64,000 bases of DNA from Streptomyces sp. RKAG290. GTDB taxonomy: Bacteria; Actinomycetota; Actinomycetes; Streptomycetales; Streptomycetaceae. The stretch is taken from assembly GCF_023701695.1 (NCBI RefSeq), contig NZ_JAJOZC010000001.1, forward strand, positions 6,943,894 to 7,007,893, given 5' to 3'. Each line of letters opens with the position of its first letter. Within the stretch, counting starts at the first letter, position 1. A model generated the notes under the pieces. That model had not been told where the DNA came from and searched no databases. It worked only from the letters and a program-made list of their open reading frames with translations. Position numbers and translations under genes: made by a program. Below, piece by piece: positions 6,099 through 53,432 of this stretch.

Positions 6099-6116
6099 CC
6101 GCACCCTGCGTCCGCC

Positions 6117-6149
6117 CGCGCCCTCCCCGCTGCCTGCGGGGAGGGCGCG
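6117..6149 (+). terminator. Stem-loop terminator after the ene-reductase gene
   Basis: CGCGCCCTCCCCGC (6117-6130) pairs perfectly with 6136-6149 around a five-base loop, 19 bases past the stop codon. There is no T-tract, which is usual for Streptomyces terminators. Confidence 0.7.
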
Positions 6150-6287
6150 GACGCATGCCGTGCGCTGAACCGGCCTCCGTTCACCGCACATTCACCAGGG
6201 ATGACGGCCGCGGCATTCCCTCCGGCGCCGTGGGGATCTACGCTCGGCCCCGAATCGATCATCGTTGTCCCCGTCCGGCCGGATGAA

Positions 6288-6299
6288 GACAACGTTGTC
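6288..6299. promoter_or_regulatory. GACAACGTTGTC palindrome, LacI-type operator of the GH92 gene
   Basis: This perfect 12-base palindrome lies 25 bases before the GH92 start codon. It has the central CG and dyad symmetry of LacI-family operators. An identical 12-mer occurs at 52391-52402 between a LacI regulator gene and a sugar kinase gene, so the same regulator probably binds both. Confidence 0.7.
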
Positions 6300-6324
6300 C
6301 GAACTCCCTGGAAGGTACCGCGAC

Positions 6325-8763
6325 ATGCCCACCAGACCCCTGCCCGCGGCCCGGCGTCTCGCCGCGCGCGCAGCCGCCGTGCTCGTCACCGGCGCGCTCG
6401 CCGCGGCGGTCCTGCCCCCGGCCGCCGAGGCCGTGGCTCCCGTCAGCCGCCCCACCGCCTATGTGGACCCGCTCATCGGCAGCGCGAACGGCGGCAACAC
6501 CTTTCCCGGCGCCACCCTCCCGTACGGCATGATCGCCTGGTCGCCGACCAGCACCACCGGCGACCAGACGAGCACCGGCGCCGCCAACGGGTACGAGTAC
6601 GGTGCCACCCGGCTGCGCGGACTGAGCCTCACCCACGTCAACGGTGCCGGCTGCAACCCCGGCGCCGCGGGCGACATACCGATCATGCCGTTCGTCGGGG
6701 ACGTCACCTCGTCACCGTCCGCCGACACCAAGGACGCGGTCTACGCCGCGAACTTCTCGCACGACGACGAGCGCGCCGTACCGGGCCGCTACACCGTCGG
6801 CCTCGACTCAGGCGCCACCGCGGACCTCGCGGTCAGCCGCCGTGCGGGCGTGGCCGACTTCGGCTTCCCGGCCGGGAAACCCGCCAACCTGCTCTTCCGG
6901 GTCTCCAACTCGCTCAACGGCAGCGAGGACGCCCAGGTGGAGATCGACGCCGCGCACCGCAAGGTCACCGGCTCGGTGCTCACCGGCGCGTTCTGCGGAC
7001 GGCGGGCCAACGGCGGTACGAACAACCGCAAGAGCTACTACCGCCTCTACTTCACCGCGTCGTTCGACCGCGCCTTCTCCTCGACCGGTACGTGGAAGGA
7101 CGGCACCCTCGCCCCCGGCGCCACCACCGGCAGTGGCGGCGAGGGCTACGCCACCGGGGCGGACCGGGCCGGCCGCGGGTCGGGCGGCTGGGTCGGCTTC
7201 GACACCGCGTCCGGCAGCGACGTCCACATGCGGATCGGCATCTCCTACGTCAGCCAGGCCGGTGCCGAGGCCAACCTCAGGTCCGAGATCGCCCCGCACG
7301 CCGGGGTGGCCGACGTCGCGGCGGCCGCGAGCCGCAGCTGGGACCGGGAGCTGAGCTCCGTGACCACCGGAGGCGGCACCGAGGCGCAGCGCACCACCTT
7401 CTACACCGCGCTGTACCACTCGCTGATGCAGCCCAACCTGATCAGCGACACCGATGGCCGCTACCCGGGCATGGACGGTGCTCCGCACCGGGTGGAGCGC
7501 GGGCAGAAGGCCCAGTACAGCAACTTCTCCGGCTGGGACCAGTACCGGGCCCAGATACAACTGCTCGCCCTGCTCAAACCGGAGATCGCCGGTGACTTCG
7601 CCCAGTCGCTGTACAACTTCGCCCGGCAGAACGGCGGCGTGTGGGACCGGTGGGTGCACATCAACGGCGCGACCCATGTCATGACCGGTGACCCCACCGC
7701 GGCGACGCTGGCCACCTTCTACGCCATGGGTGTACGGAACTTCGACTACGAGGGCGCCTACGAATCGCTGGCCCACCAGGCGACCGTTCCCCTCGACGAC
7801 GGTCTCTCGGATGCCGGCTGCCCGGGGCAGTGCACCGGCCAGCGGCCCAATCTGGGCCAGTATCTGGAGTCCCACTACGCGCCGCAGGACGTGTGCCACT
7901 GCTGGGGCGGCGCAGCCGAGACCCTGGAGGACGCGGTCGCCGACGACGCGCTCGGGCGCTGGGCCGGACTGCTCGGCCGCGACGCGGACGCCAAGGCGTT
8001 CAAGGAGCGGGGCGGCTGGTGGCGCAACGTGTTCAACTCCGCGGCCACCGACGGAGCCGGCACCGAGGGCTACATCCAGGCCCGCAACCTCGACGGCTCC
8101 TGGCTCACCCCCTTCAGCCCGGGAAGCGACAGCGGCTTCGCGCAGGGCACCAGCGCCACGTACACCTGGATGGTGCCGCAGGACGTCCAGGGGCTGGCCG
8201 AGGCGATGGGCGGCCGTGACGTCGCGGCGCAGCGGCTGGACGCCTTCTTCCACAAGGCGGACGGTTCCTGGTCGGTGAAGGGCGGCGACGCCGTGCGCTA
8301 CGACCCGACCAACGAGCCCGGAATCCACGCCCCCTGGCTCTACAACGCGCTCGGTGAGCCGTGGAAGACGCAGGAGACGGTCCGCGAGATCCTGGACACG
8401 GTCTACGGGACGGGGCCGCGCGGCCTGCCCGGCAACGACGACCTGGGCACCATGTCCGCCTGGTACGTCTTCTCGGCGCTGGGGCTGTATCCGCGGACGC
8501 CGGGCAGCGGGGACCTGCTGCTGGGTACGCCGCTGTTCCCGAGCGCGGTGATCGACCGGCCGCACGGCAGGGACATCACCATCAGCGCGCCGGCCGCCGA
8601 CGCCACCCACCCGTACATCGACGCGGTGGCGGTCGACGGCCGCGTCCACGACCGGTCGTGGACGGACGCGAGCCTGCTCGCCCGGGGCGGCTCGCTGGCC
8701 TACCGGCTGGCCGACAGGCCCAACACCACCTGGGGCACGTCTCCTTCGGGGCTGCCGCGGTAG
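6325..8763 (+). CDS. Secreted GH92 alpha-mannosidase
   Basis: This 812-residue protein matches GH92, a calcium-dependent family of exo-alpha-mannosidases, often alpha-1,2. A Sec-type signal peptide spans about residues 1-36, with paired arginines then an Ala-rich core. The mature part opens with YVDPLIGSANGGNTFPGA, a classic GH92 N-terminal motif. Later come GWDQYRAQIQL, CHCWGGAAETLED and NDDLGTMSAWYVFSALG near the C-terminus, the conserved catalytic-domain signature. The start at 6325 is preferred over the in-frame GTG at 6265 because GGAAGG at 6310-6315 precedes it and the shorter form begins directly with a signal peptide. Regulation is probably through the palindrome at 6288. Confidence 0.93.
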   Translation: MPTRPLPAARRLAARAAAVLVTGALAAAVLPPAAEAVAPVSRPTAYVDPLIGSANGGNTFPGATLPYGMIAWSPTSTTGDQTSTGAANGYEYGATRLRGLSLTHVNGAGCNPGAAGDIPIMPFVGDVTSSPSADTKDAVYAANFSHDDERAVPGRYTVGLDSGATADLAVSRRAGVADFGFPAGKPANLLFRVSNSLNGSEDAQVEIDAAHRKVTGSVLTGAFCGRRANGGTNNRKSYYRLYFTASFDRAFSSTGTWKDGTLAPGATTGSGGEGYATGADRAGRGSGGWVGFDTASGSDVHMRIGISYVSQAGAEANLRSEIAPHAGVADVAAAASRSWDRELSSVTTGGGTEAQRTTFYTALYHSLMQPNLISDTDGRYPGMDGAPHRVERGQKAQYSNFSGWDQYRAQIQLLALLKPEIAGDFAQSLYNFARQNGGVWDRWVHINGATHVMTGDPTAATLATFYAMGVRNFDYEGAYESLAHQATVPLDDGLSDAGCPGQCTGQRPNLGQYLESHYAPQDVCHCWGGAAETLEDAVADDALGRWAGLLGRDADAKAFKERGGWWRNVFNSAATDGAGTEGYIQARNLDGSWLTPFSPGSDSGFAQGTSATYTWMVPQDVQGLAEAMGGRDVAAQRLDAFFHKADGSWSVKGGDAVRYDPTNEPGIHAPWLYNALGEPWKTQETVREILDTVYGTGPRGLPGNDDLGTMSAWYVFSALGLYPRTPGSGDLLLGTPLFPSAVIDRPHGRDITISAPAADATHPYIDAVAVDGRVHDRSWTDASLLARGGSLAYRLADRPNTTWGTSPSGLPR

Positions 8764-8864: not shown

Positions 8865-8970
8865 TCCGTGCACGACTGTTGTTTTGAGTTTGGTGTTGTG
8901 GCTCAATGTTCGATTGTGTGCTGTGCCTCACAGGTTCGAGGCACTTCAGCTCTCTCGACAGGACGACGCC

Positions 8971-11900
8971 TTGAGACGACAAAAGCCCCACCCCCGCGCT
9001 CTGTTCAGGACGGTGGTCTGCGCTGCCGCGCTGCTGATCCCCGTGGGCGCGACCCTGGTCCCGGCCGCCGCAGCCGCACCGGCCGCAGCCGCCGGCGCCG
9101 CCTCCGCCACCGCTTTCGCGGCCGCCGATCCGGCCACCGACGTGCACGGCCTGAAGGGCGAGTACTTCAGCATGTCCGCGCCCGGCGCGCGGGACTTCGA
9201 CAAGCTCGGCGGAGTCGCACTCGACCCCGAGATCAACTTCCCCGGCCTCACCGGGGCGTTCGAGTCGGCCACCGGTCAGGCCGAGAACACCACCGCCCGC
9301 TGGACCGGCAGTATCCAGGCCCCCGAGGACGGCGACTACACCTTCGCCGCGAGCGGCGACAACGGCTTCCGGCTCTACATCGACGGCAAGGTGGTCATCG
9401 ACCACTGGGAGCCCGACTGGGACAACGAGCAGACCAGCAAGCCGCTCGCGCTGAAAGCCGGCCAGCCGCACGAGTTCAAGCTGGAGATGTTCCAGGACAC
9501 CGGCGGCGCCAACATGTTCCTGCGCTGGTCCAGCGCGAAGCTCTCGAAGGAGATCGTTCCGGAATCGGCCTTCACCCCGCCCGCCGACTTCGAGGTCTAC
9601 CCGGTCGGGCTGACCGTCGGCGACGACGGACAGAAGCTGCAGGCCACGTTCGACGACAAGGTCAGCGACTTCTCCGCGGTGAAGGACCACCTCGCGATCG
9701 AGGCGGACACCTCACCGATACCCGTGAAGTCGGTCGCCCGCGTGCCCGGCAACGCCAAGGCCCTGCTCGTCACCCTGTCCGCGCCCGTCCAGAAGGGCCA
9801 GCAGGTCCGCTTCGCGTACGACGGCGAGGGCGGTCTGCAGGCAGGCGGCGAGAGCGTCCCCGAGATCAGCCGCACGGCCAAGAACCTGTCCACGCACCGG
9901 CTGACCACCACCTGGGGCGACAAGCTCGACCGCAACCACCCGCTGCCCGAGTACCCCCGGCCGCAGCAGGTCCGCGACGAGTGGAAGAACCTCAACGGTC
10001 AGTGGGAGTTCGCCGGAGCCACGGCGGGCGAGCAGCCCGCCTTCGGGAAGGCGCTCGGCGAGCACATCACGGTGCCGTACCCCGTCGAGTCACAGCTCTC
10101 CGGACTCGAGCGCCACGAAGACCACATGTTCTACCGCAAGCTCGTCACCGTGCCGAAGAGCTGGTCCGTCGGCCAGGACAAGGGTGCCAAGGGCAAGGGC
10201 GGCAAGAACAACCGTCTGAAGCTCAACTTCGGGGCCGTCGACTACCAGGCCCGTGTCTGGGTGAACGGCAAGCAGGTCGCCGAGCACACCGGCGGCTACA
10301 CCTCCTTCACCGCCGACATCACCGACGCGGTCAAGGGCACCGGCCCGCAGGAGATCGTCGTCGCGGTCACCGACACCACGGGTGACGACCAGCCGAAGGG
10401 CAAGCAGTCCCGCAACCCCGGCGGCATCGTCTACACCCCGTCCTCCGGTATCTGGCAGACCGTCTGGATGGAGCCGGTCGCGCCCGCCTCGGTGGACACC
10501 CTGACGACCACCCCCGACATCGACAAGGGCAGCCTCGCCCTGAAGGTCAACTCCGCGGACTCCTCGGCCGGTGCGCAGATCAAGGCCGTCGCCCGGGACA
10601 AGAAGGGCAAGGTCGTCGGTACGGTCACCGGCCCCGCGAACCACGCGCTGAGCCTGCCCGTCGCCAAGCAGCACCTCTGGACCCCGGACGACCCCTACCT
10701 GTACGACCTCGAGGTCACCCTGACCGACGGCCGCTCCAAGGACACCGTCGACAGCTACTTCGGCATGCGCTCCCTCGGCATCCAGAAGGTCGGCGGCTAC
10801 CAGAAGCTGGTCCTCAACGGGAAGCCGTTCTTCTCCCTCGCCATGCTGGACCAGGGCTTCTGGCCCGACGGTCTCTACACCCAGCCGAGCGACGCCGCGC
10901 TGACCTTCGACCTGAAGGCGCAGAAGGAGCTCGGCTTCAATGCGGTGCGCAAGCACATCAAGGTGGAGTCGGCCCGCTGGTACTACCACGCGGACCAGCT
11001 CGGCCTGCTGGTCTGGCAGGACTTCGTCTCCTCCGACATCACCGGTGAGAAGGGGCAGCAGGCCTTCCTCTCGCAGGGCAAGCAGATGATGGAGCAGCTG
11101 CACAACTCGCCCTCGATCGGCGGCTGGATCGTCTTCAACGAGGGCTGGGGCGAATGGGACCGCGCCGAGACCGGCAAGATCGCCGAGTCCGTCAAGGCCG
11201 CCGACCCCTCCCGCGTCGTCAACGCGCACAGCGGTGTCAACTGCTGCTCGTCGAAGGGTGACTCGGGCAAGGGCGACATCATCGACCACCACGACTACCT
11301 CAACAACGAGGCCCCGTTCCCGGACGACCGGGCGGCCATGGACGGCGAGCACGGCGGCTTCACCCTCCGTACCCCCGGCCACATGTGGCCCGGTGCGCCC
11401 GCGGCGATCTACAGCGGTGTGGCGGACAAGGCCGCCCTCACGGCCAAGTACGTGGACAACACGCGCACGTACTACCTGGCAGCGGCCGGTGCGGAGCTGT
11501 CCGGCTCGGTGTACACCCAGGTCAGCGACCTGGAGAACGAGCTGAACGGTCTCTACACCTACGACCGGCGAGAGATCAAGGTCGACGCGAAGCAGGTCCG
11601 GAAGATCAACGAGCAGGTCATCGCGGCCGGCGCGGCCGCCGGTGACCGCGACGAGGTGAAGGGCGGCGCCGCCTGGAACCTCGACGAGGGCAAGGGCGCC
11701 GAGGCGGGCGACCAGGGCCCCAACCACCTCCCGCTCACCCTCTCCGACGGCGCCTCCTGGACCCCCGGCGTCCAGGGCTCCGCGCTGAAGTTCAACGGCG
11801 AGGGACAGTACGCCGAGACCACCGGCCCGGCCGTCGACACCACGAAGAACTACACGGTGTCGGCCTGGGCCTCCCTCGACGAGCTGCCCGGCAACTACGC

Positions 11901-12273
11901 GACGGTCGTCAGCCAGGACGGCAGGCGCACGGAGAACCCGTTCTACCTCCAGTACGGGCAGGGCGCGTTCGCCTTCAGCACCCCGGGCGGCAACCGGGCC
12001 CGGGTGGAGATGAAGCCGGAGACCGGCAAGTGGTACCACCTGGTGGGTGTGCGCGACGGCGACGAGCTGAAGCTGTACGTCGACGGCAGCCTCGCAGCCA
12101 CCGCGCCGGCCGGACCCGCGGACGTCAGCACCGGCCCGCTCTCCGTGGGGCGTGCCCGGTACGCGGGCGAGAAGGGTGACTTCTGGAACGGCTCCATCGA
12201 CCAGGTCAGGGTGTACGACAAGGCCCTGACCGCGGACGAGGTGAGCGCGCTGCACGGCACCGAACAGCCGTAG
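8971..12273 (+). CDS. Secreted GH2 glycosidase with N-terminal PA14 and C-terminal LamG domains
   Basis: The protein is about 1100 residues. A signal peptide (about 1-45) precedes a PA14 carbohydrate-binding domain (HGLKGEYFS, about 50-180). The GH2 sugar-binding domain starts near residue 316 (HPLPEYPRPQQ) and is followed by the immunoglobulin-like and TIM-barrel domains. NEGWG at about 723-727 carries the acid/base glutamate, and GEHGG the probable nucleophile. A LamG/concanavalin-like domain occupies about 900-1100. A TTG start at 8971 is chosen because it opens with RRQKPHPRALFR, a normal signal n-region; the longer frame from 8884 would add an implausible leader. GH2 covers beta-galactosidase, beta-glucuronidase and arabinosidase-like activities, so the substrate is open. 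Confidence 0.85.
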   Translation: MRRQKPHPRALFRTVVCAAALLIPVGATLVPAAAAAPAAAAGAASATAFAAADPATDVHGLKGEYFSMSAPGARDFDKLGGVALDPEINFPGLTGAFESATGQAENTTARWTGSIQAPEDGDYTFAASGDNGFRLYIDGKVVIDHWEPDWDNEQTSKPLALKAGQPHEFKLEMFQDTGGANMFLRWSSAKLSKEIVPESAFTPPADFEVYPVGLTVGDDGQKLQATFDDKVSDFSAVKDHLAIEADTSPIPVKSVARVPGNAKALLVTLSAPVQKGQQVRFAYDGEGGLQAGGESVPEISRTAKNLSTHRLTTTWGDKLDRNHPLPEYPRPQQVRDEWKNLNGQWEFAGATAGEQPAFGKALGEHITVPYPVESQLSGLERHEDHMFYRKLVTVPKSWSVGQDKGAKGKGGKNNRLKLNFGAVDYQARVWVNGKQVAEHTGGYTSFTADITDAVKGTGPQEIVVAVTDTTGDDQPKGKQSRNPGGIVYTPSSGIWQTVWMEPVAPASVDTLTTTPDIDKGSLALKVNSADSSAGAQIKAVARDKKGKVVGTVTGPANHALSLPVAKQHLWTPDDPYLYDLEVTLTDGRSKDTVDSYFGMRSLGIQKVGGYQKLVLNGKPFFSLAMLDQGFWPDGLYTQPSDAALTFDLKAQKELGFNAVRKHIKVESARWYYHADQLGLLVWQDFVSSDITGEKGQQAFLSQGKQMMEQLHNSPSIGGWIVFNEGWGEWDRAETGKIAESVKAADPSRVVNAHSGVNCCSSKGDSGKGDIIDHHDYLNNEAPFPDDRAAMDGEHGGFTLRTPGHMWPGAPAAIYSGVADKAALTAKYVDNTRTYYLAAAGAELSGSVYTQVSDLENELNGLYTYDRREIKVDAKQVRKINEQVIAAGAAAGDRDEVKGGAAWNLDEGKGAEAGDQGPNHLPLTLSDGASWTPGVQGSALKFNGEGQYAETTGPAVDTTKNYTVSAWASLDELPGNYATVVSQDGRRTENPFYLQYGQGAFAFSTPGGNRARVEMKPETGKWYHLVGVRDGDELKLYVDGSLAATAPAGPADVSTGPLSVGRARYAGEKGDFWNGSIDQVRVYDKALTADEVSALHGTEQP

Positions 12274-13254: not shown

Positions 13255-15600
13255 TCACGGCGCCCAGGGCGCCTCCACCGCCCAGGTGGTGTCCTCGGTG
13301 AAGGTGGCCGGGTTGTCCCAGGCGTGTCCGCCGCCCGGTGTGGCCAGCCAGACCTCCGAGTCGATGTGGCGCAGATAGCTGCCCGGCAGATTGGCGCTGG
13401 ACAGTCTCACCCCGCCCGTCCCGGCGACGGCGCACCAGGTGGCATCGGCCTTGAACAGGGCCGAGCCGTCGTTGGCGTCCCGCCGGACCCGGAAGTCGCG
13501 GTGCCGGAGGAACTCGCCCGGATAGTTGCGGGACTCCAGCGAGTAGCAGTTGCTGTTGCCGAGACCGGCGACGATCTTCCAGGTGGCGTCGCCCTTGAGC
13601 ACCGCGCTGCTCCCGCCGTCGACGACCGCGGTGAAGGCGAGCGCGTCCTGATGGCGCAGATACTTGTCGGTGTACCCGGGCGTGGTGACCCGCAGGGACT
13701 TGTACTGCCCGGTGGGCAGCGTGACCGGTGGTGCGGGGTTGCGGGAGGCGTTGATGAGGGCCTGGTTGGCGGCCTTCACGCGTGCCGCGTCCACCTTGAC
13801 CACCTGACGGTCGTAGGTGAGCAGCCCGTTCGCCTCGTTCTCGACGTCGGTGATCTCCGTGTAGACGGAGGCGGAGAGCCCCGCCGGCAGCTGTCCGACC
13901 CGGATGCTGTCGAGCAGCCCGACGAACCGGTTGTTGAGCGCGGAGGTGCTCGCCTGGTCCTCGTAGCTGAATCCGCCGCCGGGATACCACTCGTGCCCGG
14001 GGACCTTGTAGCCGAGGCCGCCGAACTCGCCCAGGACGGCCGCCCGGGTGGACGTCGGTGCGGTGTTGCCGGGGCCGACGTAGACGTGGTTGTCGACCAC
14101 GTCCCCGTTGCCGCCGTCGACCGAGCCGCAGCAGTTGACGCCGCTCATGTTGTCGACCAGCCGGGACGGGTCGTACGCCTTGACCTCGTTGGCGATCCTC
14201 GCCTGGTCGTACTGCCCCCAGCCCTCGTTCTGGTCGACCCACATGACCAGCGAGGGCGAGCTGCGGTGCTGGTCGATGACCGCGTGGTATTCGACCTCCC
14301 ACTGCGCGCGGGCCGCGGTGTCGGGGCTCTTGCCGGTGTCCATGGCGGGCATGTCCTGCCAGACCAGCAGGCCGAGCTTGTCCGCCCAGTAGAACCAGCG
14401 CTGCGGCTCGACCTTGATGTGCTTGCGCACCATGTTGAAGCCGAGGTCCTTGTGCGCCTGCAGGTCGGACTTGAGTGCGGCGTCCGTCGGCGCGGTGTAG
14501 ATGCCGTCCGGCCAGTAGCCCTGGTCCAGGGTGCCGGTCTGGAAGACGAACTTGCCGTTCAGGACCGGCCGCAGGATGTTGTCGACCTTGGCCACGGCGA
14601 TCGACCGCATGCCGGCGTAGCTGCCGGCCGAGTCGGTCACGGCCGACCCGTCGAGCAGCTCGGCCTTCACGTCGTACAGGAACGGGTCGTCCGGGCTCCA
14701 CAGATGCGGGTTCGGCACCGGCACGGAGATCTCCGAGCCGATGGTTCCGGTGGCCGTACCGACGACGTTGCCGCCGCTGGAGACCGTGACCCGGGCGCTG
14801 CGGCCGGCAGCGGACGCGCCCTGCACCTTCACCCGCAGGGTGCTGTTGCCCAGGTTCGGTGTCATGTCCAGGCGGGTGATGTGTGCCGCCGCGACCGGCT
14901 CCAGCCAGACCGTCTGCCAGATACCGGAGGCCGCGGTGTAGAAGATGCCGCCGCCGTTGTGCGGCTGCACGTCATTGATGCGCTGCTTGCCGACGGCCTG
15001 CCCGCCGGTCTGCGTCGGGTCGTAGACGGAGACCACGACCGTGTTCGTGCCGCCGTTGAGCTGCGGGGTGATGTCGTACGCGAACGAGTCGTAGCCGCCC
15101 TTGTGCGCACCGACCTGGGTGCCGTTGACCCAGACCGTGGTCTGCCAGTCGGAGGCGCCGAAGTTGAGCTCGACCCGGCGGCCGTTCCAGTTCGACGGCA
15201 CGGTGAAGGTGCGCTTGTACCAGAGCTTGTCGTTCTCGGTGATCTTGCGCTGGATGCCGGAGAGCGCGGACTCCGCGACGAACGGCACCCGGATCTGATC
15301 GGTGAACGAGGACGGCTGCCCGGCGTCGCGGCCGGTCACCGCGAAGTCCCAGATGCCGTTGAGATTGGCCCAGTCGGGCCGGGTGAGCTGCGGGCGCGGG
15401 TACTCGGGCAGCGGCTTGTCGACCGGGACCTGAGCGGTCCAGGGGGTGGTCATGGGGGAGGGCTTGGGCGTCCAGGACGCGGCGCCGGCCGGCGCGGCAC
15501 CGACTCCCACCAGTGCGGTGGACACCAGCGCCAGCAGTCCGGTGCCGGCGATCACTCGTCTCCACCAGGGCCCGTGGCCGGGAACACGTAAACGGCTCAT
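13255..15600 (-). CDS. Secreted GH2 glycosidase with C-terminal AbfB (CBM42-like) domain
   Basis: This 781-residue protein begins with a signal peptide (WWRRVIAGTGLLALVSTALVG). The GH2 domains cover about residues 45-610: PLPEYPRPQLTRPDWANLNG, then WVNGTQVGAHKGGYDSF, DQNEGWGQYD near residue 455 (acid/base Glu), and GEFGGLGYK (probable nucleophile). Residues from about 630 to the end form an AbfB-type trefoil with repeated LRH segments (DKYLRHQD, GEFLRHRD, GSYLRHID). AbfB domains bind arabinofuranosyl side chains. AAGGAG precedes the ATG. It follows the GH127 arabinofuranosidase gene on the same strand after a 99-base gap holding a hairpin. The binding domain and neighbours suggest action on arabinose-decorated polymers. 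Confidence 0.88.
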   Translation of the reverse strand: MSRLRVPGHGPWWRRVIAGTGLLALVSTALVGVGAAPAGAASWTPKPSPMTTPWTAQVPVDKPLPEYPRPQLTRPDWANLNGIWDFAVTGRDAGQPSSFTDQIRVPFVAESALSGIQRKITENDKLWYKRTFTVPSNWNGRRVELNFGASDWQTTVWVNGTQVGAHKGGYDSFAYDITPQLNGGTNTVVVSVYDPTQTGGQAVGKQRINDVQPHNGGGIFYTAASGIWQTVWLEPVAAAHITRLDMTPNLGNSTLRVKVQGASAAGRSARVTVSSGGNVVGTATGTIGSEISVPVPNPHLWSPDDPFLYDVKAELLDGSAVTDSAGSYAGMRSIAVAKVDNILRPVLNGKFVFQTGTLDQGYWPDGIYTAPTDAALKSDLQAHKDLGFNMVRKHIKVEPQRWFYWADKLGLLVWQDMPAMDTGKSPDTAARAQWEVEYHAVIDQHRSSPSLVMWVDQNEGWGQYDQARIANEVKAYDPSRLVDNMSGVNCCGSVDGGNGDVVDNHVYVGPGNTAPTSTRAAVLGEFGGLGYKVPGHEWYPGGGFSYEDQASTSALNNRFVGLLDSIRVGQLPAGLSASVYTEITDVENEANGLLTYDRQVVKVDAARVKAANQALINASRNPAPPVTLPTGQYKSLRVTTPGYTDKYLRHQDALAFTAVVDGGSSAVLKGDATWKIVAGLGNSNCYSLESRNYPGEFLRHRDFRVRRDANDGSALFKADATWCAVAGTGGVRLSSANLPGSYLRHIDSEVWLATPGGGHAWDNPATFTEDTTWAVEAPWAP

Positions 15601-15645
15601 CGGTTCGTCTCCTTCGTTCGGTCCAGCTCCGTCATGCGGGAAGCC

Positions 15646-15667
15646 CCCCGCGCCGGGTGGCGCGGGG
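15646..15667 (-). terminator. Stem-loop between the GH127 and GH2 genes
   Basis: CCCCGCGCC and GGCGCGGGG pair around GGGT in the gap after the GH127 stop codon. It may terminate or attenuate reading into the GH2 gene. Confidence 0.55.
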
Positions 15668-15699
15668 AGCGGTGCGGGATTGCGTGGAACAGTCGGGGG

Positions 15700-18147
15700 T
15701 CAGACGAGCTGCCAGAGGTGGTCGTCGGTGCCGTTGTCGTCGTACTGCACGACGTGGGCGCTGTCGGCGGTGGACATGTTGTCGACGCCGAGGACCTTGG
15801 CGGAGTGCCGGTTGCGGATGCGGTACCAGCCGTCTCCGTCAGGGACGAGCTGCCACAGGTGGTCGTCGGTGTCGCTGTCGTCGAACTGGACGACGTGGGC
15901 GCTGTCGGCGGTGGACATGTTGTCGACGCCGAGGACCTTGGCGGAGTGCCGGTTGCGGATGCGGTACCAGCCGTCGCCCTCGGGGACCAGCTGCCAGTCG
16001 TGGTCGTCGGTGCCGGTGTCGCCGAACTGGACGACGTGGGCGCTGTTGGCGGTGGACATGTTGTCGACGCCGAGGACCTTGCCGGAGTGCCGGTTGCGGA
16101 TGCGGTACCAGCCGCCCGAGAGCCACGGCTGCGCGTCCGGGTCGGCAGTCGGGAACGACGTGATGCGCAGGCGCGCCGCACCCATGGGGACGAGCGTGAT
16201 CTCCTCGACCGGTTGCGTGCTGCGGGCCGGACTGTCCTGGAGCGGGGTGACGACGTGTTCGCCGTCCGCCGCCCACTCCGGGATGCGGCGGGCCCGCGCG
16301 GTCATGGTCAGCGGGGTGCCGTCGAGCGTGAACGGGTTGGCGTCCTTGACGTGGCTGACCGTGTGGTGGTGCAGCGAGGCCGCCGGCTTCTTCTCGTCCA
16401 GCACGAGTCCGTAGTTCCACGGGCCGGTGGCGTGCACCCCGAACTCCGGGAACTGGTCGGTGCCGCCGATGCGCTCGTAACTCTCACCGATCCGCAGCGA
16501 GTACGTGAGCGGGCCGCGGTCCACGCTGACGGAACCGTGGTTGTGCTCCCAGGTGCGGACGGTGGTCTGCTGCGGGAAGCGCAGGGTCACCTTGTCGCCG
16601 TCGGCCCAGGTGCGGTCGATGCGGGTGAAGGCGGGTCCGGCGGGAGCGTCCACGCCGCGCCCGTTCACCTTGATCTCCGGCACGGCGCACCAGGCCGGCA
16701 CCCTGAGCACCAGCGGGAAGCGCAGCTGCTTGGGTGCCTTCAGGGTCAGGGTGACCGTGTCGGTGAACGGATAGCCGGTCTCCTCGGTGAAGGTGACCTC
16801 GGTGCCGTCGGCGACCTTCGCGGTGACCTCGCTGCTCGCGTACATCGCGGCGGCGAGACCGCCGTCGGGGGTGGCGAGCCAGAGCTCCTCGACGAAGTAG
16901 GGCCAGCCCATGCCGTAGTTGTGCGGGCAGCAGCGGTACTGGTCCACGCCAGGCAGGAACGCCTGCATGGCGAAGCCGTTCTGGAACTGCCGTTGCTTCT
17001 TCGGCGCGTTGTCCAGGTCGACGCTGTTGGCACTGGTGATGTAGTGGATCGACCTGCCGGACGGGTCCAGCGAGGCGGGCAGCGAGTTGAAGGCCAGTTC
17101 CTCGCAGCGGTCGGCCCACAGGGGATCGCCGGTGATCCGGGTGAGCAGCTGGTGGCTGGCCATGAACTCGACGATCCCGCAGGTCTCGAAGCCCTGGCGC
17201 GGGTCGCCGTGCCCGGGACGCGCGTTCTCGTCCCCGGCGAAGCCGCCGCCGGGGAACTGCCCGTACTGGTCCATGGCCTTGCCGTAGGTCCCGTAGGTGT
17301 CCCGGGTGTCGTCGGCCGAACCGCTGCGCAGCGCGTACTGGGCGGGCTCGCGGAAGCCCTGCGCGATGTTGACGTTGTGCAGGTTGACCAGGTTGTCGCC
17401 CCAGTCGGCGCCGTTCGCGTGGATCTTGTCGGCGAGGTCCAGCAGGAAGGTGTCGCCGGTGCGGTTGAAGAGCCAGAACACGCTGTCCAGGCCGTCGCCC
17501 CAGCGCAGCGCGATCCAGCTGGTGTTGAAGGCGCCGGGCCCCTGGGCGTTCATGTAGCGGAAGAACCGGCTGAGGAAGGGGATGATCCGGGTGTCCCCGG
17601 AGTACTCCTGCCAGGAGCGCAGCGCCTGGACCAGCGGGAGGAAGGGCCAGAAGTCCGGGCCGCCGTTGAGCGAGGTGCGCAGCGACTTCGGGCCGAAGAG
17701 GCCGTCGGACTGCTGGGTGGCGAGGATCGCGTCGAACCAGCGGCGCACGGTCGCCAGCGCCTTCGCGTCGCCGGTGACGATGGCGAGGTCGGTGTAGCCG
17801 CGCAGCCAGTACGGGACCTCCTCCCAGCCGCCCAGTTCGGGGCGGACCCAGCCGGTGGCGGTGAAGTCCAGGAAGTGCGAGAACTCCTCGTACCGGCCGC
17901 AGAGGCCCTCCAGCTGGAGCTTCAGCTGGCCGGCCAGCCAGCCGCGCGCGGTCACCCGGCCGGGCGGGAGTTTCAGGAACGCCGTCGGGTGGAGGGGGGC
18001 GGCGTTGGGGGAGTAGTGGCCCCCATGGGCCGGTTCTGCGCGGTGCTCGGCCGCGGTCGCGGTGGTGGCCCAGCGGCCGCTCGCCGCCGTGGCGGCCGCG
18101 GCCGTGGCCAGCGCACCGGCCATGAGTTGTCTGCGGTTCAGTGGCAT
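15700..18147 (-). CDS. Secreted GH127 beta-L-arabinofuranosidase with ricin-type lectin tail
   Basis: This 815-residue protein opens with a twin-arginine signal (LNRRQLMAGALA). The GH127 (DUF1680) domain fills about residues 45-670. FETCGIVEFM and YRCCPHNYG provide the Glu-Cys and Cys-Cys pattern that, in characterised GH127 enzymes, binds zinc and includes the nucleophilic cysteine. Three near-identical 47-residue repeats (WYRIRNRHS..KVLGVDNMST) at the C-terminus form a beta-trefoil, CBM13/RICIN-like lectin. AGGAG eight bases before the ATG at 18147 fixes this start over the longer frame to 18267. It is divergent from a furanose-type ABC importer, which supports a role in releasing arabinofuranose. 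Confidence 0.92.
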   Translation of the reverse strand: MPLNRRQLMAGALATAAAATAASGRWATTATAAEHRAEPAHGGHYSPNAAPLHPTAFLKLPPGRVTARGWLAGQLKLQLEGLCGRYEEFSHFLDFTATGWVRPELGGWEEVPYWLRGYTDLAIVTGDAKALATVRRWFDAILATQQSDGLFGPKSLRTSLNGGPDFWPFLPLVQALRSWQEYSGDTRIIPFLSRFFRYMNAQGPGAFNTSWIALRWGDGLDSVFWLFNRTGDTFLLDLADKIHANGADWGDNLVNLHNVNIAQGFREPAQYALRSGSADDTRDTYGTYGKAMDQYGQFPGGGFAGDENARPGHGDPRQGFETCGIVEFMASHQLLTRITGDPLWADRCEELAFNSLPASLDPSGRSIHYITSANSVDLDNAPKKQRQFQNGFAMQAFLPGVDQYRCCPHNYGMGWPYFVEELWLATPDGGLAAAMYASSEVTAKVADGTEVTFTEETGYPFTDTVTLTLKAPKQLRFPLVLRVPAWCAVPEIKVNGRGVDAPAGPAFTRIDRTWADGDKVTLRFPQQTTVRTWEHNHGSVSVDRGPLTYSLRIGESYERIGGTDQFPEFGVHATGPWNYGLVLDEKKPAASLHHHTVSHVKDANPFTLDGTPLTMTARARRIPEWAADGEHVVTPLQDSPARSTQPVEEITLVPMGAARLRITSFPTADPDAQPWLSGGWYRIRNRHSGKVLGVDNMSTANSAHVVQFGDTGTDDHDWQLVPEGDGWYRIRNRHSAKVLGVDNMSTADSAHVVQFDDSDTDDHLWQLVPDGDGWYRIRNRHSAKVLGVDNMSTADSAHVVQYDDNGTDDHLWQLV
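15703..16110 (-). repeat. Three tandem 141-bp coding repeats (lectin trefoil)
   Basis: Three copies with 141-base periodicity (the last, at 15703-15828, cut to 126 bases by the stop codon) encode the lectin repeats of the GH127 protein. Copies differ at only a few positions, for example Gly/Ala after RNRHS and QFGD/QFDD/QYDD. The DNA identity is high enough for slippage or recombination between copies. Confidence 0.9.
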
Positions 18148-51266: not shown

Positions 51267-52295
51267 TCAGTTCGGGCGCAGCTCGCCCGAACCCCGGGGG
51301 ATCAGCCTCGTCGGGAGCTCCACCCGCGCCGGTGCGTGGGCGGCGCCGTCGAGCCGGCGGAAGAGGTGCTCGGCCGCGGTGCGGCCGACGGCCGCGGCGT
51401 CCTGGGAGATGACGGTGATACCGAGCAGATCAGCGAGCTCGATGTCGTCGAAACCGACCAGGGCGACCGCGGGGTCCCGGTCGGCCAGGACGCGCACCAC
51501 GGTCACGGTCACGCGGTTGTTTCCGGAGAACAGCGCCGTGACGGGCTCCGGGCCGGAAAGCATGGTCTCGGCGGCCCGGCGGACCCGGGCGGGCTCCGTG
51601 GAGCCGAGGGAGACCCAGGAGTCCTCCACGGTTATCCCGGCGTCCGCCATGGCGGTGTGATAGCCGCGCAGCCGCTCGGTGGCGGTGTGGATGCGCGGCT
51701 GGTCACCGATGAACCCGATCCGGCGGTGGCCATGCGCGATCAGGTGCGCGACGCCCTGACGGGTGCCGCCGAAGCTGTCCGAGAGCACCATGTCGGCATC
51801 GATCCGGCCCGCCGGCCGGTCCACGAAGACGGTCGCGATGCCGGCCTTTATCTCCGGCTCCAGGTAACGGTGGTCGTCGCCGGCCGGGATCACGATGAGC
51901 CCGTCGACCCGGCGCGCGCACAGCGCCAGGACGAGCTCCTGCTCGCGCTCCGGGTCCTCGGCGCTCGAACCGTTGATGAGCAGCGCGCCGTGCGCGCGGG
52001 CGACCTCCTCCACCGCGCGGCTCAGCGGCCCGTAGAAGGGGTCGGCGAGGTCCTCCAGGACGAGTCCGATGGACGCGGTGCGGCCTTTGCGCAGCACGCG
52101 CGCGCTGTCGTTGCGGCGGAAGCCCAGTGCGTCGATGGCCTCCTGGACCCGGCGCTCGGTGTCGGGTGTGACGCCTGCCTCGCTGTTGACCACGCGGGAG
52201 ACCGTCTTGAGGCCCACTCCGGCACGCGCGGCCACATCCTTCATGGTCGGCCGGTTGCCGTAACGGGGCTCGGGATGACGGGTGGTCTCGGCCAC
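51267..52295 (-). CDS. LacI family transcriptional regulator (probable mannosidase/ROK regulator)
   Basis: This 342-residue protein has a LacI helix-turn-helix (MKDVAARAGVGLKTVSRVVN, about residues 17-36) preceded by a short polar arm, and a ligand-binding domain with GLVLEDLADPFYG and ALFSGNNRVTVTVV. VALVGFDDIELADLLGITV is the usual late motif. The GTG at 52295 follows AGGA at nine bases and avoids the extra proline-rich leader. It is divergent from a ROK sugar kinase gene with the palindrome GACAACGTTGTC between them. The same palindrome before the GH92 mannosidase suggests control of mannose or mannoside use. Confidence 0.9.
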   Translation of the reverse strand: MAETTRHPEPRYGNRPTMKDVAARAGVGLKTVSRVVNSEAGVTPDTERRVQEAIDALGFRRNDSARVLRKGRTASIGLVLEDLADPFYGPLSRAVEEVARAHGALLINGSSAEDPEREQELVLALCARRVDGLIVIPAGDDHRYLEPEIKAGIATVFVDRPAGRIDADMVLSDSFGGTRQGVAHLIAHGHRRIGFIGDQPRIHTATERLRGYHTAMADAGITVEDSWVSLGSTEPARVRRAAETMLSGPEPVTALFSGNNRVTVTVVRVLADRDPAVALVGFDDIELADLLGITVISQDAAAVGRTAAEHLFRRLDGAAHAPARVELPTRLIPRGSGELRPN

Positions 52296-52390
52296 GGTGC
52301 GCTGTCCTGTCGTCGGTTCGGGCTGTCCGGCGGGGCCGCGGAGACTACCGCGAGGGGGGCCGGAGGCTGTGGCGTCGAGCATAGGCCCTG

Positions 52391-52402
52391 GACAACGTTG
52401 TC
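52391..52402. promoter_or_regulatory. GACAACGTTGTC operator between LacI and ROK genes
   Basis: This perfect 12-base palindrome lies in the divergent promoter region, 95 bases from the LacI start and 73 bases from the kinase start. It is identical to the site at 6288-6299 before the GH92 mannosidase gene. It is the likely binding site of the adjacent LacI protein. Confidence 0.72.
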
Positions 52403-52475: not shown

Positions 52476-53432
52476 ATGCATACCGACCTCGTCGCCGCGC
52501 TGGACATCGGCGGCACCAAGATCGCCGGCGCGTTGGTCGACAGCAACGGCACGCTCCTCGTACGCGCGCAGCGCCCGACGCCCGCCCGCGAGAGTGGCGA
52601 GAAGGTGATGGGCGCGGTCGGTGACGTGCTGGCCGAGCTGACCGCCTCGCCCCTGTGGGGGCGGGCATCGGCCGTCGGTATCGGCAGCGCGGGCCCGGTG
52701 GACGCCACCGCCGGGACGGTCAGCCCCGTCAACGTCCCCGGCTGGCGGGACTTCCCGCTCGTGGCGCGGGTGAGCGAGGCGGCCGGCGGGCTGCCCGTCG
52801 AGCTGGTCGGTGACGGGGTCGCGATGACCGCGGCCGAGCACTGGCTGGGCGCCGCCCGCGGTTACGACAACGCGCTGTGCATGGTCGTGTCGACCGGTGT
52901 CGGCGGCGGACTGGTCCTCGGCGGCATGCTCCGCCCGGGCCCCAGCGGAAACGCGGGCCACATCGGACACATCAGCGTGGACCTGGACGGCGACCCGTGC
53001 CCGTGCGGTTCGCGCGGCTGCGTCGAGCGCATCGCCAGTGGCCCCAACATCGCGCGCAGGGCGCTGGACGGCGGCTGGCGGCCCGGCCCCGACGGTGACG
53101 CCTCGGCCGCGGCGGTGGCGGCCTCGGCACGGGCGGGAGACCCGGTCGCGGTGGCCTCCTTCGAACGGGCCGCGCAGGCGCTGGCCGCGGGTATCGCCGC
53201 GACGGCCACGCTGGTCGAGATCGACATCGCGGTGATCGGCGGGGGAGTGGCCGGGGCCGGCGACGTGCTGTTCGCCCCGCTCCGCAGGGCCCTGCGCCGG
53301 TACGCCACGCTCTCGTTCGTCCAGCAGCTGACGGTCGCGCCCGCGGTCATGGGCAACGACGCGGGGCTGGTCGGCGCGGCCGCCGCGGCGTTCTCGGCGC
53401 GAGTGGGGGCGGACGGGGTGGTCCCGGTCTGA
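52476..53432 (+). CDS. ROK family sugar kinase
   Basis: This 318-residue protein is a ROK-fold kinase. LDIGGTKIAGALVD is the phosphate-binding loop, VGIGSAGPVDATAG and VPGWRDFPL follow, and the zinc motif GDPCPCGSRGCVERIASG is complete. The catalytic Asp lies in the VELVGDGVAMTAAEHW segment in place of the usual NDAN. It phosphorylates a hexose, by context perhaps mannose, in the cytoplasm. It has no N-terminal DNA-binding domain, so it is a kinase and not a ROK repressor. A CGGAG sequence precedes the ATG. Confidence 0.92.
   Translation: MHTDLVAALDIGGTKIAGALVDSNGTLLVRAQRPTPARESGEKVMGAVGDVLAELTASPLWGRASAVGIGSAGPVDATAGTVSPVNVPGWRDFPLVARVSEAAGGLPVELVGDGVAMTAAEHWLGAARGYDNALCMVVSTGVGGGLVLGGMLRPGPSGNAGHIGHISVDLDGDPCPCGSRGCVERIASGPNIARRALDGGWRPGPDGDASAAAVAASARAGDPVAVASFERAAQALAAGIAATATLVEIDIAVIGGGVAGAGDVLFAPLRRALRRYATLSFVQQLTVAPAVMGNDAGLVGAAAAAFSARVGADGVVPV

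Follow-up and report, generated by a model that had tools for sequence, protein, structure and literature searches.

A 12-bp palindrome is said to occur at four places in the genome of Streptomyces sp. SirexAA-E, two of them upstream of alpha-1,2-mannosidase genes, and the same work, by Ohashi et al. (2021), reportedly introduced SsManR as a new regulator responsive to mannose and mannobiose; its abstract is also said to state that SsCebR responds to mannobiose. From this description, SsManR is probably the SirexAA-E orthologue of the LacI-family regulator analysed below, and its motif probably the palindrome GACAACGTTGTC. A search of literature titles and the opening parts of abstracts returned no description of GACAACGTTGTC as an operator; the 12-mer string itself matched literature on Streptococcus and E. 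coli. A second related system is that of the cellobiose repressor CebR, a LacI/GalR-family protein for which the available excerpt of one study describes a single palindrome, TGGGAGCGCTCCCA, at many scattered carbohydrate-enzyme genes with cellulose-related targets (PMC4898821). The partial text of another study names cellobiose and mannobiose as ligands of SsCebR (PMC12772271).

The window, by which we mean the whole 64-kb stretch of DNA analysed here, carries two exact copies of GACAACGTTGTC, each a perfect palindrome with no strand assigned: one at 6288-6299, upstream of a GH92 alpha-mannosidase gene, and one at 52391-52402, in the divergent promoter region of a LacI/ROK gene pair, with 46 kb between them. 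A sequence-only reading of the window had pointed to this identical 12-mer at two operator positions and judged it unlikely to be shared by chance. Both copies were confirmed, and the counts agree with that judgement: about 0.0012 exact copies would be expected in 64 kb from base composition (Poisson P ~7e-7), and matches with up to two mismatches numbered nine in the window, compared to a mean of 2.1 and a largest value of six in 100 shuffles. In the 8.08-Mb genome from which the window comes (the source genome), GACAACGTTGTC occurs seven times against about 0.15 expected from composition, whereas the reversed palindrome, identical in composition, occurs once; with up to one mismatch allowed, the counts are 37 and three, respectively. 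The genome-wide search that the reading had proposed bore out the enrichment of the exact motif and showed that a pair of sites was too small a scope for it. Abundance away from promoters, which the reading had named as the observation that would speak against the motif, was mostly not seen for exact copies, five of the seven lying upstream of genes and two within coding sequence (L020 and L016). Simple gene calling had placed all seven between genes, a picture that we rejected because L016 falls within a ThuA gene and L020 within the part of a GH92 gene that encodes its N-terminal domain. Among the 30 one-mismatch copies, 22 fall within called genes and eight are intergenic, which argues that these copies are mostly background.

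The LacI-family regulator (51267-52295, minus strand) contains the Pfam LacI helix-turn-helix and sugar-binding domains, with PF00356 at 50.9 bits and PF13377 at 85.3 bits, both above cut-off, and is 91% identical to the SirexAA-E protein L087. Diverging from it is the gene for a ROK-family sugar kinase (52476-53432, plus strand; Pfam ROK, E 4e-63), a candidate mannokinase. The best NCBIfam match of this kinase was the N-acetylmannosamine kinase subfamily, with a score of 179.9 bits against a cut-off of 283, and the scores for all 13 NCBIfam families listed were below their respective cut-offs. The operator at 52391 lies between the called LacI start (52295) and the ROK start (52476). Among the 27 genes of the source genome that encode a LacI-type helix-turn-helix, this LacI gene is the only one with a site of up to two mismatches in the 450 bp before the DNA-binding domain, and also the only one with the helix VGLKTVSRVV. 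Of 537 confirmed matches, the best 80 were taken as orthologues; they have 83-95% identity, and their titles all name Streptomyces. Within this set, the exact GACAACGTTGTC stands upstream of LacI at all 80 loci, the ROK gene is adjacent and divergent at 79, and the helix VGLKTVSRVVN is kept in all 69 of the 80 orthologue rows that were listed; no ROK match was found at the single exceptional locus (L126).

On the LacI side of the operator, window positions 52369-52390 form a block that is strongly conserved in the 80 loci (CAGGGCCTATGCTCGACGCCAC in the LacI direction, some positions varying) and is perhaps part of the LacI promoter. This conservation led us to consider a longer LacI frame starting at the ATG at 52382, beside the operator, which we rejected as coding since the frame runs into LacI in only 25 of the 80 loci.

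A LacI orthologue is present in all 26 genus genomes compared, with the exact site beside it in 25; in the remaining genome (G012), LacI is kept and the exact site is absent genome-wide. Since the exact site accompanies LacI in 25 of 26 genomes and at every one of the 80 orthologous loci (the best of 537 matches), and a site is found at just one of the 27 LacI-type genes of the source genome, LacI 51267-52295 is very probably the regulator acting at GACAACGTTGTC, as judged from this conservation. More broadly, LacI matches with E values up to 1e-75 were found in 64 of 65 genus genomes and in 13 of 15 genomes from elsewhere in the order, the latter including weaker matches that are maybe paralogues. 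Six more divergent LacI promoters from the same genus had the exact site in five cases, and only 136 bases were available for the sixth. For eight LacI relatives of other genera (55-64% identical), the exact site was found upstream in two, no site with up to two mismatches was found in the 400 bp upstream of the other six, and no ROK gene was detected upstream of any of the eight in the stretch fetched.

Altogether, the 26 genomes contain 96 exact sites, of which 25 are at LacI, 38 upstream of GH92 genes and 33 elsewhere; in 25 genus genomes, 89 exact copies of GACAACGTTGTC compare with four of the reversed control. When GH92 genes are counted by their N-terminal domain, with a limit of 2 kb upstream of that domain, the exact site precedes 37 of 58. 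In 20 GH92 genes from 20 genomes, which are of a type with a long N-terminal region, the site is 1252-1330 bp before the N-terminal domain, and in one of the 37 tallied genes (G023:C1:536760) another open frame, which has no Pfam match, lies between site and GH92. The exact upstream site is missing in 21 of the 58 genes, at least six of which have a one-mismatch copy upstream and four of which (L217, L219, L226 and L228) have a two-mismatch copy only. Together with the conservation at LacI (80 of 80 loci among the best 80 of 537 matches, and 25 of 26 genomes), the tally of 37 in 58 GH92 genes lends strong support to the earlier proposal that one LacI regulon joins the GH92 gene to the LacI/ROK pair.

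The variants GACAACGATGTC, GACATCGTTGTC and GACATCGATGTC were also seen upstream of GH92 genes (L218, L224, L225, L226, L228, L230, L042, L286 and L287), in four cases as pairs about 45 bp apart (L224, L225, L286 and L287). They suggest either that a position next to the central CG tolerates variation or that another regulator is involved.

Outside the source genome, 30 exact sites are neither at LacI nor upstream of GH92; nine are in called genes and 21 are intergenic by gene calling, two of which (L199 and L200) proved on closer reading to be inside ThuA genes. Most, not all, of the flanking genes were scanned. Sugar-linked genes preceded by these elsewhere-sites include GH26, GH5, GH1 with a ROK gene, another ROK gene and mannose-6-phosphate isomerase, and further adjoining genes encode a GH2 enzyme, a GH127 enzyme and a GH67/solute-binding-protein pair. 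Other neighbours had no obvious sugar link, among them genes for a polyketide synthase, a lipase and a PAP2 protein; several more lacked a Pfam match. The families GH5 and GH26 include beta-mannanases, and their occurrence alongside alpha-mannosidases hints that the shared signal may be mannose or a short manno-oligosaccharide.

The GH92 gene of the window (6325-8763, plus strand, from the ATG at 6325) encodes an alpha-mannosidase with Pfam matches to the GH92 catalytic (E 6e-144) and N-terminal (E 3e-61) domains, PF17678 being matched over positions 1-236 of 236 and PF07971 over 1-463 of 464, and it scored 519.9 bits against NCBIfam TIGR01180 (cut-off 249.55). Its best solved relatives are named alpha-1,2-mannosidase, and its N-terminus, judged by eye, resembles a secretion signal. 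Between the operator at 6288 and the GH92 ATG lie 25 bases, which include the ribosome-site-like GGAAGG at 6310-6315; a scan of 6100-6400 for sigma-70 promoters and terminators found none. The operator is exact in L280, the closest orthologue fetched (87% identity across the N-terminal part), and occupies the corresponding position 38 bp ahead of the start. It was not found upstream of three orthologues of 78-86% identity (L281-L283, the start of L281 being unclear), and two of 73-74% identity (L284 and L285) have a two-mismatch operator upstream. The exact operator is thus kept in one of the six closest orthologues, and it is frequent among the more distant GH92 genes of that comparison. Turnover of operators among orthologues is common in regulons; because of this turnover among the six, the site at 6288 is weaker evidence than the LacI/ROK site.

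Several features surround this gene. A second half-like site, ATCATCGTTGTC, with three mismatches, lies at 6258-6269, 30 bp upstream of the GH92 operator, and L280 has CTCAACGCTGTC, also with three mismatches, 35 bp upstream of its operator. Next after GH92, on the same strand, is a gene for a GH2-type enzyme with PA14 and LamG-like domains (8884-12273); the two are separated by about 120 to 250 bp, depending on which start is used, and could be co-transcribed. Further along, at 13255-18123, a GH2 gene with an AbfB domain adjoins a GH127 gene with ricin-type lectin domains; a GH127/lectin gene in another genome (G024, L196) has an exact operator 160 bp upstream.

The source genome has five GH92 genes, as counted from six profile matches, two of which are pieces of one gene, and from five N-terminal domains. 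Three have an exact upstream site, one has the one-mismatch site GACAACGATGTC directly upstream of its start, and the remaining one contains an exact copy within its coding sequence. In addition to the two window sites, exact copies lie at five positions. The site at C1:1041450 has a GH92 gene with an F5/8-type domain at a distance of 72 bp and, divergent to that gene, a solute-binding-protein gene whose called start is 450 bp away and which is followed by a permease gene; at C1:6891289, the called start of the neighbouring GH92 gene is 82 bp away. At C1:5208545, an ATG follows the site after 16 bp and opens a frame that ends after 142 codons; the called frame beyond the stop matches an MGH1-like glycoside hydrolase, so that this gene looks interrupted in the assembly. 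The remaining two copies are the in-gene sites. One, at C1:7866871, falls in the N-terminal domain of a GH92 gene, and the frame of this gene, too, looks interrupted; the other, at C1:199751 (L016:4752-4763), lies within the 5' part of a ThuA/glucose-sorbosone dehydrogenase gene. If sites were placed at random, the probability of at least three GH92 genes neighbouring the seven would be ~6e-8, assuming 7000 genes and two neighbours per site. Interrupted frames were seen in three target genes of this assembly (L018, L020 and L042), reflecting either decay or sequencing indels.

From these patterns, we regard it as highly probable that GACAACGTTGTC is the operator of the LacI repressor encoded at 51267-52295, within a mannose regulon that joins GH92 enzymes, the ROK kinase and an ABC transporter. 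The repressor would occupy the palindrome at its own divergent promoter region, shared with the ROK kinase gene, those at GH92 mannosidase promoters, and the one between a GH92 gene and the divergent ABC sugar transporter, and would be released by mannose or a small manno-oligosaccharide. Secreted GH92 enzymes would then trim mannose off substrates such as fungal mannan or N-glycans, the ABC transporter would import the sugar, and the ROK kinase would phosphorylate it. In this scheme we infer DNA binding, repression, the inducer and the substrates of transporter and kinase. A point against the regulon is that the transporter gene starts ~450 bp from the site at C1:1041450.

Some exact copies lie in coding sequence or beside unrelated genes, as would be expected if the 12-mer were a chance or general repeat with no regulatory meaning. 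However, the counts relative to composition and to the reversed control, and the conservation at promoters, at LacI in all 80 loci taken as the best of 537 matches, make such a repeat vanishingly unlikely. We give just as little credence to GACAACGTTGTC being the operator of CebR, an idea favoured by the mannobiose response that SsCebR reportedly shows. Both cellobiose and mannobiose appear as its ligands in the partial text of PMC12772271, but the CebR site given in the excerpt of PMC4898821 is a different palindrome, TGGGAGCGCTCCCA. It is also improbable that the distant GH92 sites are controlled by another regulator with the same DNA preference, for example of the LacI family, with the local LacI acting at its own promoter only. 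The variants GACAACGATGTC and GACATCGATGTC before several GH92 genes could mean that such a related regulator exists; against it, the combination of VGLKTVSRVV with an operator-like site in the preceding 450 bp is confined to this LacI among the 27 LacI-type genes of the source genome, and LacI and site are kept together in two promoters of other genera with no ROK gene detected nearby.

Control by the window LacI may extend to the inside of a gene. About 50 codons into the ThuA/glucose-sorbosone dehydrogenase frame, the exact 12-mer is identical in five orthologues (L016, L199, L200, L202 and L238), an agreement that is biased since all five were reached only through the site itself. The start of the gene, upstream of the site, resembles a signal peptide as judged by eye. 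The site encodes Thr-Thr-Leu using ACA and TTG, which account for 3.4% of Thr and 2.5% of Leu codons, respectively, in a usage table drawn from the loci of this analysis, and the preceding residue varies (Ser, Pro, Arg or Ala) while the last base of its codon stays G. The rare codons, the identical 12-mer and the varying residue suggest selection on the DNA. We tentatively propose a mannose regulon that spans the genus and in which the repressor also acts at an intragenic roadblock operator in the ThuA gene, a reading that we think somewhat doubtful as a whole; if true, this operator would bring an oxidative sugar enzyme under the control of mannose.

Taken together, these results would link the multiple GH92 alpha-mannosidases of Streptomyces to a regulator, an operator and a probable class of inducer, and suggest that one palindrome ties GH92 enzymes to a sugar importer and a kinase and, in some species, to GH5, GH26 and mannose-6-phosphate isomerase. 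The core of the system is reportedly already in print for SirexAA-E, and what is added here is its breadth across the genus and the proposed in-gene operator. In SirexAA-E we found five exact copies of GACAACGTTGTC, compared to the four reportedly described: both of its GH92 genes have one upstream, and the others lie in the LacI/ROK interval, in a ThuA gene and by a gene whose protein has no Pfam match. The LacI orthologue L087 has the exact site at -109, and the window LacI is a probable orthologue of SsManR. Because these sites fit the reported description of SsManR well, the finding appears to represent an already-known type of regulon in another strain. As with the palindrome said to lie upstream of alpha-mannosidase genes in the SsManR regulon, here three of five GH92 genes have the exact site upstream and one more a one-mismatch site, although the source genome has five such genes where SirexAA-E has two. 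The likeness to CebR, as far as the excerpted account of that system goes, lies in a LacI/GalR-family regulator and one palindrome at scattered carbohydrate-enzyme genes, whereas the operators themselves differ, TGGGAGCGCTCCCA for CebR and GACAACGTTGTC here.
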